Positions 38,794 through 43,766 of a stretch of 51,229 bases of DNA are shown here, one piece after another. A program made the position numbers and the translations under genes. Within the stretch, counting starts at the first letter, position 1, and every line of letters starts with the position of its first letter. A model generated the notes under the pieces. The model had not been told where the DNA came from, made no database searches, and saw only the letters and a list, made by a program, of their open reading frames with translations. Source of the stretch: Alphaproteobacteria bacterium (GTDB lineage Bacteria; Pseudomonadota; Alphaproteobacteria; Rs-D84). The stretch covers positions 1 through 51,229 of the forward strand of contig WRCA01000006.1 of assembly GCA_009784275.1 (NCBI GenBank). The letters are read 5' to 3'.

Positions 38794-38955
38794 TTTTATA
38801 CCTTTGTTATCTCGAATAGTATCACTCTATAGATATTTGTCAATATTATTTGTAAGTATGTTTGTAAAAAGGAATTGCTTTTTTGCTGTGTTATATTAGC
38901 ATGTTATATGTCAACAAATTTGGGACGAGAGAGAACAGCCAAAAAAGGCCACAAT

Positions 38956-40251
38956 ATGCCATATCCAACCTCTGCCCAACGTCCGGATCTTCTTAAAATT
39001 CTGGAAGAAGAAATTGCCGTAATAAAATCAACCATCAAACCAGGCGAAAAAGTGCTCTGCGCGCTTTCCGGCGGCGTTGATTCATGTGTTGTTGCAAGCA
39101 TACTGCATGAAGCAATCGGCGATCAATTGATTTGCGTATTTGTTGATCATGGCGGGATGAGATTTGGTGAAGCCAAAGAAATCAAACAAAGATTTACCAA
39201 GCAATTCGGTCAAAGCTTTATCGCAGTAGATGCATCCAAGGAATATTTAAGAGCCATCAAGGGTGTTTCGGATTCCGAGCAACTACGCAAGATTATTGGT
39301 AAAAAATTCATAGATGTATTCAAGGAAACAGTTGATAAATTCGAAAACATAAAATACTTTGCACAAGGGACGATTTTAACCGACCTTGATGAAAGCGGGC
39401 ATGGGGGCAAAAATAAAATCAAGACTCATCATAATGTCGATGTTGATAAATTCGTTGAGGAAAAAGGGTGGACTTTGATAGAACCACTTAAACGTTTACG
39501 CAAGGAAGATGTTCGCACAATCGGCAGCTGGATGAATATTCCGGAAGAACATTTAAAGCGTCAGCCATTCCCCGGTCCCGGCAATTATCTTCGCGTCATA
39601 GGCGGCAGCGGCATAACAGGTAAAGATTTGAAAAAAGTTTCAGAGTTTGATGCAATTGTCAGGAGACGCCTCGATGCAGCCAAACTTCCTGATGCCAAAC
39701 AATATTTCGGCGCAGTAGCAAAAAATATGAAATTCAGAGGCGACTTTGTCAGAGGAATTAATAAAGAACTTATCGAGGAAGCCAAAGATATAATCGGAAG
39801 TGTTATTCATCCGAGATTTTTTACCGATGACCTGGTAAGTCTTGCGCCGAAAACCAAAGTCACCGGAATCAGGGATGAAGCGCGTGCCGAAGAACCAATC
39901 ATGGTTGTTAATGGTTTATCTATACTTAATGCGGCGCTTGGTGATGGTAAAGTTTCAAAAGATACTGATATTAAGTTAAACAAAATCAAGTGCGAAATAG
40001 CGGATAGGATTTGCGCTGCGCTGCCAATCGGTCGCGTGATGTACAACCAGAACATGGCTTCGCTCTCTAATCCTTATAGTTTTATTGTGCGTGCGATTAA
40101 TACCACGAACTTTGACCGAGCTGTGCCAACTTATATAAATATGGGCCTGCGGGTAACCATTAAGAGAGATCTTGATGAGCTGTTTGGGCGCTGTCAGTCT
40201 TTATTGTTCGATATGACCAGCAAGCCAAGCTCTACGGTAGAATACAGGTAA
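38956..40251 (+). CDS. guaA: GMP synthase-like ATP-pyrophosphatase without glutamine amidotransferase domain
   Basis: PP-loop CALSGGVDSCVVASIL; RQPFPGPGNYLRVIGG; C-terminal MTSKPSSTVEYR; no GATase region. ATG at 38908 is an alternative start. Confidence 0.75.
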   Translation: MPYPTSAQRPDLLKILEEEIAVIKSTIKPGEKVLCALSGGVDSCVVASILHEAIGDQLICVFVDHGGMRFGEAKEIKQRFTKQFGQSFIAVDASKEYLRAIKGVSDSEQLRKIIGKKFIDVFKETVDKFENIKYFAQGTILTDLDESGHGGKNKIKTHHNVDVDKFVEEKGWTLIEPLKRLRKEDVRTIGSWMNIPEEHLKRQPFPGPGNYLRVIGGSGITGKDLKKVSEFDAIVRRRLDAAKLPDAKQYFGAVAKNMKFRGDFVRGINKELIEEAKDIIGSVIHPRFFTDDLVSLAPKTKVTGIRDEARAEEPIMVVNGLSILNAALGDGKVSKDTDIKLNKIKCEIADRICAALPIGRVMYNQNMASLSNPYSFIVRAINTTNFDRAVPTYINMGLRVTIKRDLDELFGRCQSLLFDMTSKPSSTVEYR

Positions 40252-41770: not shown

Positions 41771-42199
41771 ATGGTGATTTTTGATAAAAACAGCTGGGAT
41801 AATGGCGCAATTAGCGAAAATTCTGCAAATGGAAGTTTTCTTCCAGAGTCTGTGATGCAGCAACCCGTCAATATAAAAGGGCAGATTTCATCCGCTGTGG
41901 CTGGACTTGGTATAATTCCACGGCTTCTGCCGGTTATCGAAGCATATGAATCAAAAGAGATAAGAAAAGAGCAGACAGAATTCTGTATGCCTGATTTTGT
42001 TTATGCTGCAAGTAAGGAAGACTCTTTTTGGAAAAACTTCAAACTGCTGCGCGACTGGCACGTCGCTGCAGGCGTCGAAAATCCGGACGAGGCCGTATTG
42101 CGGGATGTAGAGCAGTTATTGATTCTTGAACTCCGCTTGAGCGATTTTATATTCGAAGCATTTAAGAAAGATGGGAAGGCATACTTTATGCTTGCATGA
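41771..42199 (+). CDS. Hypothetical protein, 142 aa
   Basis: Coherent ORF; no family recognised. Confidence 0.5.
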   Translation: MVIFDKNSWDNGAISENSANGSFLPESVMQQPVNIKGQISSAVAGLGIIPRLLPVIEAYESKEIRKEQTEFCMPDFVYAASKEDSFWKNFKLLRDWHVAAGVENPDEAVLRDVEQLLILELRLSDFIFEAFKKDGKAYFMLA

Positions 42200-42223
42200 A
42201 TTACGATTGCAGATGATTACTGC

Positions 42224-42251
42224 TTGAAATGTTTTAAATTCAGATTATAAT
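42224..42251 (+). promoter_or_regulatory. Putative sigma-70 promoter of the T-box leader
   Basis: TTGAAA (42224-42229), 16-nt spacer, TATAAT (42246-42251). Confidence 0.6.
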
Positions 42252-42257
42252 ATTGGC

Positions 42258-42431
42258 AATGGAATTTATCTGCGATGACCCGATTGACGACCGGAGAGCT
42301 GTGATTTCCAAAAATTAAAGATAAAAGACAGGGTGGCACCGCGCTAAACCCACCCATCGAAATCTGTGATTTCGTTGGGACTAGGGATCCAGCGCCCCTG
42401 ATTATAAATAAGAAACAAAAAGGTGCTTTTC
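42258..42431 (+). promoter_or_regulatory. T-box-like leader upstream of aspS2
   Basis: AGGGTGGCACCGCG at 42330-42343; antiterminator-type fold CAGGG(42329-42333):CCCTG(42396-42400) and GCGCT(42341-42345):AGCGC(42391-42395) with 7-nt bulge TGGCACC; internal hairpin CGAAATC-TGT-GATTTCG. Confidence 0.8.
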
Positions 42432-43766
42432 ATGAAAACTAAAAGAACACATATTGCCGAAATTCCAAAAGAACAAGGTAAAAAAATAGAAATAGCAGGT
42501 CATGCACAAGTTATTCGCGGACAAAGCGCAGTTATGTTTATAATTCTGCGCGATATAACCGGCACTGTGCAATGTGTAATAGACAAAGCAAATCCGCAAT
42601 TCGAATTGGCGCAAACAATAACGACAGAATCCATTTTGGAAATTAAAGGAACGATTGTTGAAACGAAAGTAACTAATAGTACTCCGAATGGAATAGAGAT
42701 TCAGATCGAATCTTTTGAAATTCTGTCGCTGGCTGAAGCGTTACCAATTCCAATAATTGAAAAAGGCGGGATAGAAGTTACACCAGAAGTAAGTCAGGAC
42801 TGGCGCTTTTTGACAGTGCGCCGTGTACGTAATGCGACCATTATGAAAGCTTTATCTGCGCTGGATCGTGGATATTCAGAATTCCTGATCAGCCAGGGCT
42901 TCATTGGAACTCATACCCCAAAATTAATGGCGACAGCATCGGAATCAAATGCTGAATTATTCAAGTTGGATTATTTTGGTAAGACTGCATATTTGGCGCA
43001 AAGCCCGCAACTTTACAAACAAATGGCGATCGCTGCTGGGCTAGAACGAGTGTTTGAAATTGCTCCATTGTTCCGTGCTGATCCATCTTTCACGACACGT
43101 CATGCTACGGAATTTATCGGTCATGACGCAGAGATGGGATATATAAATGATTTCTCTGAAGTTATGGACATGTTGGAAAAAGCAATCATGCATATTGCGG
43201 AAACCATTCATGAAACTTGTGGTTCCGATATTGAAAAGTATCTCGGTATTTCGGATATTAGAATAAAGAAGCCATTCCTGCGAATAACTATGCATAAGGC
43301 ACGCGAGATTTTAAAAAACCGCGGTATCCAGACCGACGACGGGAAAGACCTTTCTACGGCCGAAGAAAAAGCAATCGGCGAATGGGCAAAGCAAGAGCAT
43401 GATAATGACTTCGTTTTCGTTACAGAATTTCCATGGGCGGCGCGTCCGTTCTATCATAAAAAAAGCGTCAGTAGTGATGATGGAGTAACTCCGATTACGA
43501 TTAGTGCAGACTTGATTTGCAAAGGTGTAGAGTTGGTTACGACTGCCCAACGTGAAGAAAATTATGAAAAGCTGGTTACGCAGTGTAAAGAGAAAGGGCT
43601 GCATCAAGAAGGTTTGCAATGGTATCTGGACTGTTTCCGGTTTGGTATGCCACCACATGGCGGCTGGGGAATGGGTGGCGGCCGATTGTTGAAACAATTA
43701 TTGAATTTGGAAACTCTGCGCGAAGCGACATTCTTATTCCGCGGACCAAATAGATTAACGCCATAA
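42432..43766 (+). CDS. aspS: Aspartyl-tRNA synthetase, archaeal/eukaryotic-like type (AspS2-like)
   Basis: KTAYLAQSPQLYKQMAIAAGLERVFEIAPLFRADPSFTTRHATEF; GMPPHGGWGMGGGRLLKQLLNL; lacks the long bacterial GAD insertion. ATG 42432 with AAAAAGG RBS preferred to GTG 42423. Confidence 0.88.
   Translation: MKTKRTHIAEIPKEQGKKIEIAGHAQVIRGQSAVMFIILRDITGTVQCVIDKANPQFELAQTITTESILEIKGTIVETKVTNSTPNGIEIQIESFEILSLAEALPIPIIEKGGIEVTPEVSQDWRFLTVRRVRNATIMKALSALDRGYSEFLISQGFIGTHTPKLMATASESNAELFKLDYFGKTAYLAQSPQLYKQMAIAAGLERVFEIAPLFRADPSFTTRHATEFIGHDAEMGYINDFSEVMDMLEKAIMHIAETIHETCGSDIEKYLGISDIRIKKPFLRITMHKAREILKNRGIQTDDGKDLSTAEEKAIGEWAKQEHDNDFVFVTEFPWAARPFYHKKSVSSDDGVTPITISADLICKGVELVTTAQREENYEKLVTQCKEKGLHQEGLQWYLDCFRFGMPPHGGWGMGGGRLLKQLLNLETLREATFLFRGPNRLTP

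Follow-up and report, generated by a model that had tools for sequence, protein, structure and literature searches.

The leader that precedes aspS2 is very probably a minimal T-box riboswitch acting on translation. It lies on the plus strand of the window, by which we mean the whole 51,229-nucleotide stretch of DNA analysed here. T-boxes are regarded as a Gram-positive device. The source genome (0.89 Mb, 21 contigs), which had looked proteobacterial to the original prediction, is alphaproteobacterial according to its nearest named relatives with aspS2, all metagenome-assembled genomes of Alphaproteobacteria; several of these apparently come from termite guts, as read from their isolate codes. 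The proposal of a T-box-type leader in front of aspS2 is supported by the helices, the specifier codon, the bulge and covariation. By its testable defining features the leader is a T-box-type tRNA sensor, whose function we infer, and it belongs neither to the ultrashort actinobacterial subgroup nor to the long canonical form.

Architecture of the aspS2 leader

The exact core motif AGGGTGGCACCGCG is located at 42330-42343, as predicted, on the plus strand; it is the sole exact copy in the window and none of 100 dinucleotide shuffles contains one. CAGGG (42329-42333) pairs with CCCTG (42396-42400) to form helix A1, and GCGCT (42341-42345) pairs with AGCGC (42391-42395) to form helix A2. The coordinates and the fold (z -3.3, with an equally good fold in 0 of 200 shuffles) bear out the earlier proposal that these helices enclose a 7-nt bulge, TGGCACC (42334-42340). 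The UGGC of the bulge is complementary to a tRNA 3' GCCA end, the fourth base of UGGN being C, which complements a G73 discriminator. The suggested match to G73 holds for the G73-CCA ends of tRNA-Asn in this genome and of tRNA-Asp in a relative; the tRNAs typed in the source genome, whose assembly is incomplete, did not include tRNA-Asp.

The loop of helix A2 carries an additional hairpin (42353-42379) that alignment and folding mark as particular to this genome. A competing stem between GGGTGG (42331-42336) and CCACCC (42350-42355), put forward in the original prediction as a means of hiding the motif, is able to form but sits in this genome-specific insertion and is missing from the relatives, and it was rejected as the switch because it is not conserved.

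Upstream, a sigma-70-like promoter (TTGAAA-16 nt-TATAAT, 42224-42251, plus strand) matches the consensus at 11 of 12 positions. Its -10 hexamer ends at 42251 and the RNA is predicted to start at about 42258, so no longer Stem I is concealed upstream and the very short Stem I anticipated earlier is the whole of Stem I. In the minimum-energy fold Stem I comprises 51 nt (42260-42310) with the specifier codon in its apical loop. The 5' arm of its basal helix (UGGAA, UUAU and GC, 42260-42273) pairs with the 3' arm at 42298-42310, and above this helix a kink-turn is indicated by a GAU bulge followed by GA (42274-42278) opposite GA (42296-42297). A standard kink-turn consists of a 3-nt bulge followed by G.A and A.G pairs, which the window sequence matches; T29, G30 and A31 on the 5' strand and G49 and A50 on the 3' strand of alignment A1 are at least 90% conserved. 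The 9-nt apical loop AUUGACGAC (42283-42291) contains the aspartate codon GAC at 42286-42288. Folded alone, the Stem I of the window barely beats its shuffles (z -0.8), which counts against the minimal T-box reading.

Stem I and helix A1 are separated by a purine-rich linker of 18 nt by inspection (42311-42328), and neither Stem II nor a IIA/B element is present in this interval. The columns of the linker that form AAGNNANAA are conserved; in the 50-leader alignment this sequence may correspond to the RRRxG-Stem III-AA motif that precedes the antiterminator of T-boxes, but it has no Stem III helix, and the linker probably derives from the Stem III region.

Occurrence and covariation in related genomes

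The search for the same leader in related alphaproteobacteria that the original prediction had proposed found the core motif, as pattern RGGTGGCACCGCG, in 170 of 201 genomes of the order, mostly as one copy each, and a reversed control pattern was rare. Among the loci read, most matches are upstream of a bacterial-type aspS and fewer are upstream of aspS2, while some are not leaders, a few of them lying inside coding sequence (L045, L052 and L060). The earlier suggestion of a new lineage of T-boxes comes near the truth. Throughout a family of Alphaproteobacteria with small genomes, the same leader is found ahead of the native aspS.

Class A, as we define it, comprises 105 distinct leaders of aspS or aspS2, chosen by their lack of a Stem IIB-like sequence. 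The core motif served as the search key and is therefore conserved by design; no such selection acted on Stem I, on the 3' strands of A1 and A2 or on the complement of the Shine-Dalgarno sequence. Helices A1 and A2 are present in all 105 leaders. In 104 leaders the apical loop of Stem I reads Y-Y-[G/A]-A-C-[A/G], located with a pattern that itself requires [GA]AC, and the codon is always one for Asp or Asn (GAC in 80, AAC in 24, other triplets in none), matching the amino acid of the downstream aspS or aspS2 in 104 of 104. The exception, L010, has a CGACA loop farther upstream together with a Stem II-like sequence and was misfiled as class A by the filter. A hairpin search free of the codon requirement recovered a hairpin flanked by the kink-turn, defined as a sequence pattern of NNN-GA opposite GA at the base of Stem I, in 97 of the 105 leaders, with the same loops in all but three. 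A second loop triplet read as a codon, or two tandem codons, was rejected, as this triplet varies (AAC, GAC, ACC, AAU, AAA, GCC).

Covariance support in homologous leaders, the absence of which the original prediction had named as evidence against a T-box, was found. In the 50-sequence alignment 95.4% of cells pair, and the covariation score is 0.503; shuffled alignments give 0.195, none of the 500 reaching the observed score, and slid partners give no more than 0.118. The shuffles leave relatedness in, and the slid-partner control and an arm swap agree with the shuffle result. Compensatory changes in these 50 leaders support all helices, including both strands of A1 and, within Stem I, every one of the 5 pairs of the inner basal helix and 2 of the 3 distal pairs. 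When basal arms were swapped between genomes, the mean energy over 104 leaders rose from -11.8 to -6.7 kcal/mol, and the source genome's own arms gave -10.0 versus -7.3 kcal/mol swapped.

Detection depends on the model used. At gathering score Rfam gives no match in the window, and a search of the source genome with RF00230 gives none either; this model, named in the original prediction as a check, aligns its 3' end on the element with 16.3 bits against a gathering cut-off of 93, so Rfam alone would miss it. The custom model proposed alongside fared better: our covariance model R1 scores the element at 80.4 bits, the window's own sequence being one of the 50 in the model. No genome among the 201 of the order reaches the RF00230 cut-off, and other such leaders have therefore probably been overlooked. 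Across 385 genomes of the class, R1 detected the family and weak matches to leaders of a second kind (class B, described below) in families f94 and f95, and RF00230 detected 9 genomes in the same sample; in 399 genomes of the phylum R1 found no convincing element outside the family, both samples being thin and the filters strict. Of 125 proteobacterial genomes in an early census, 2 had a T-box (PMC2494555), and no report of T-boxes in Alphaproteobacteria was found in the literature searched, which comprised papers readable without subscription.

The predicted switch and the history of the locus

We infer that the leader binds tRNA, rejects charged tRNA and switches in the following way and direction. 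Transcription would begin just upstream of Stem I, and the apical loop of the kink-turned Stem I would show GAC to the GUC anticodon of tRNA-Asp; some relatives would present AAC instead, for tRNA-Asn. Without uncharged tRNA, GGCACC of the bulge (42335-42340) would pair with the sequestrator GGUGCU (42422-42427) in the Shine-Dalgarno region and block ribosome entry. The GCCA end of an uncharged tRNA would pair with UGGC, stabilising helix A1 and freeing the Shine-Dalgarno sequence, and aspS2 would be translated once the charging of Asp-tRNA (or Asn-tRNA) drops.

The predicted folds are consistent with this scheme. The OFF state is the minimum-energy fold (-43.0 kcal/mol), with the bulge paired to the Shine-Dalgarno region, and the ON state with A1 is predicted at -42.5 kcal/mol, 0.5 kcal/mol higher; both strands of A2 stay paired in the two states. 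Such near-equal energies are as expected of a reversible translational switch and make a switch of this type the most likely one. The competitor that recurs in relatives is the pairing of GGTGC (42422-42426), at the Shine-Dalgarno sequence, with GCACC (42336-42340). GGTG[CT] occupies the Shine-Dalgarno position in 12 of 16 short leaders; L044, L046 and L226 are without it and L004 has GGAG instead. An accessibility model over all leaders, which used a crude 5-nt Shine-Dalgarno window, did not separate ON from OFF.

All 89 long leaders, nearly all of one genus, carry an anti-T-box element, GGTGCC, farther upstream. This raises a relay for the g10 leaders in which GGTGCC would release or pair with the 3' arm of a hairpin, this arm in turn serving as an anti-Shine-Dalgarno sequence, a reading for and against which we find the balance even. 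It is a variant of the best explanation for the relatives and no opponent of it for the window. The arm sequence tends to match the Shine-Dalgarno type: GGTG occurs with the arm CACC in 20 of 30 leaders (versus 2 of 39 when the Shine-Dalgarno is GGGA), GGGA with CCC in 35 of 39 (versus 7 of 30), and GGCG with CGCC in 6 of 6. Once relatedness is controlled, however, 1 independent pair is left on supported branches, the arms pair modestly better than swapped ones and the accessibility model gives no difference. The relay is suggestive only.

The product of aspS2 (42432-43766, plus strand) types as NCBIfam NF003483, aspartate--tRNA(Asn) ligase, the non-discriminating aspartyl-tRNA synthetase (436.7 bits, cut-off 353). 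No AsnRS model scored above its curated cut-off in any of 45 relatives, and GatB is present in the source genome. Asn-tRNA is therefore probably made by amidating Asp-tRNA-Asn, following established knowledge of this pathway, with AspRS charging both tRNAs.

In the source genome and in G024, aspS2 occupies the native aspS locus, the order of which (aspS or aspS2, a small ORF, an AsmA-like gene and uvrB) recurs in G010, G011 and G020, where the small ORF of G020 is unmatched. G020 and G003 carry both genes, with aspS2 elsewhere, and that of G020 stands behind a different, longer T-box, which is a class B leader. Horizontal acquisition had originally been suggested; acquisition of the leader together with aspS2 is rejected by the synteny and by the different leaders of aspS2 at other sites, and the leader is a feature of the native aspS locus. 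On the simplest reading of the gene orders, the coding sequence of aspS was exchanged in place for aspS2 while the resident class A leader was kept, and if so the regulator stays with the locus and not with the enzyme.

This replacement, together with the insertion in the A2 loop and basal arms that are just moderately better than swapped ones in the source genome, would also suit a decayed T-box left behind in this genome by the replacement and no longer regulating. We consider such decay unlikely: every part, from the promoter through the kink-turn, GAC loop, A1, bulge and A2 to the Shine-Dalgarno complement, is intact, R1 gives the leader 80.4 bits, and similar leaders have been retained before aspS2 in G024 and G005.

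Control of transcription rather than translation, through Rho or a terminator missed by the scan, appears quite improbable. Long T-boxes mostly act on transcription and some g10 leaders have U runs downstream of the anti-T-box element, but these runs do not directly follow a hairpin, there is no terminator-like site in 42120-42470, and the bulge complement overlaps the Shine-Dalgarno sequence in the 12 of 16 short leaders noted above.

Stem II and comparison with known T-boxes

The leader resembles the ultrashort translational T-boxes of Actinobacteria (ileS of Mycobacterium and Nocardia), in which Stem I is short and kink-turned and its apical loop holds the codon. Like them, it is without the elbow-binding double T-loop module, and control is predicted to lie at the Shine-Dalgarno sequence (PMC7583486, PMC10651847), which, judged by complementarity and folding only, would be sequestered in place of a terminator. 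It differs in carrying a codon for Asp or Asn rather than Ile and in occurring in another phylum. The ileS T-boxes also need Stem II, with its S-turn, and the IIA/B pseudoknot for tRNA binding, and these are absent from the window leader. When Stem II is missing, the short ileS Stem I has hardly any hold on tRNA (PMC7583486; PMC10651847), and on grounds of affinity this counts against the minimal T-box reading.

A second class of leaders, class B, has the same short Stem I with a GAC or AAC loop and the same UGGC bulge and differs in retaining Stem II and IIA/B-like sequence. Class B leaders precede aspS in G036 (f2), G037 (f3), G002 and G014 (both g2) and in families f94 and f95, which lie outside the order; in several genomes they precede aspS2. 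Their loops (CUAACAA, CAAACAA, AUAACAA, CGACA, CCGACA or CUGACA) again specify Asp or Asn. That the window leader is a complete ultrashort T-box of the actinobacterial kind with a Stem II diverged past recognition is very unlikely: Stem II-like and IIA/B-like sequences do occur in relatives inside and outside the family, but the 18 nt from Stem I to A1 are too few for Stem II and a IIA/B pseudoknot, and the gap is similarly short in other class A leaders. Since class B leaders keep Stem II inside and outside the family, the comparison of sequences indicates that it was probably lost within the family.

Among other T-boxes, those of Bacillus glyQS also have no Stem II, but their Stem I is long, bears the elbow-binding module and makes a G-C-rich GGC:GCC codon contact, and they are transcriptional (PMC7583486). 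The leader likewise lacks the features of canonical long T-boxes, namely an internal-loop specifier and the elbow-binding double T-loop module in distal Stem I. With the leuA T-boxes of Geobacter and Pelobacter it shares a Gram-negative host. Geobacter and Pelobacter are deltaproteobacteria, not alphaproteobacteria. Their leuA elements differ from the window leader in being called typical T-box elements and in preceding another gene (PMC2494555).

We hypothesise that the Stem I loop resembles an anticodon loop. The codon appears to have toggled between GAC and AAC at least 12 times by parsimony on a weakly supported tree of short sequences, which is an indication and not a measurement. A tentative proposal, which we put somewhat short of probable, is that among natural tRNA-sensing riboswitches of its kind this one is the smallest: without Stem II or an elbow-binding module it may grip tRNA by loop-loop contact, the Stem I loop mimicking an anticodon loop (Y32-Y33-[GAC/AAC]-R37-A38) in the manner of two complementary anticodons, and the codon may have toggled repeatedly because one non-discriminating synthetase serves both tRNAs. 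The toggle would tie the sensor to the non-discriminating charging pathway.

A T-box is conserved before an essential synthetase gene throughout an alphaproteobacterial family and occurs in further families. The domain said to be needed by T-boxes with a short Stem I for tRNA binding is missing here and kept in close relatives, so the contribution of Stem II can be tested by natural deletion, and the minimal leader may show how little RNA suffices to sense tRNA charging.

Several minor observations were made. Two kinds of T-box stand side by side in the one genome G015, where the class A aspS leader has as its divergent neighbour a class B T-box (L178, minus strand, position 565) that apparently belongs to aspS2. 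A GMP synthase-like ORF in the window (38875-40251) aligns to the guaA model (512 positions) over positions 198-442 only; the N-terminal glutaminase portion is lacking and the final 170 residues of the ORF are unmatched. A long T-box in an alphaproteobacterial assembly (L331, G417:C1:135170-135410) scores 110.3 bits, above the Rfam cut-off, and has a terminator-like hairpin upstream of a DAHP synthase-like gene; it may be a recent transfer or contamination. T-boxes with a UGGU bulge, a terminator-like hairpin and a U run precede a tyrosyl-tRNA synthetase-like gene at L061, L064 and L066 (G037, G043 and G040; families f3 and f6 of the order); RF00230 gives the highest-scoring of them 90.4 bits. 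Between the anti-T-box hairpin and the Shine-Dalgarno sequence, a hairpin of the form CCCACTTCGC...GCTTTGTGGG recurs in L072, L083 (twice), L196, L231, L234, L240 and L242, and it looks like a small repeat element.
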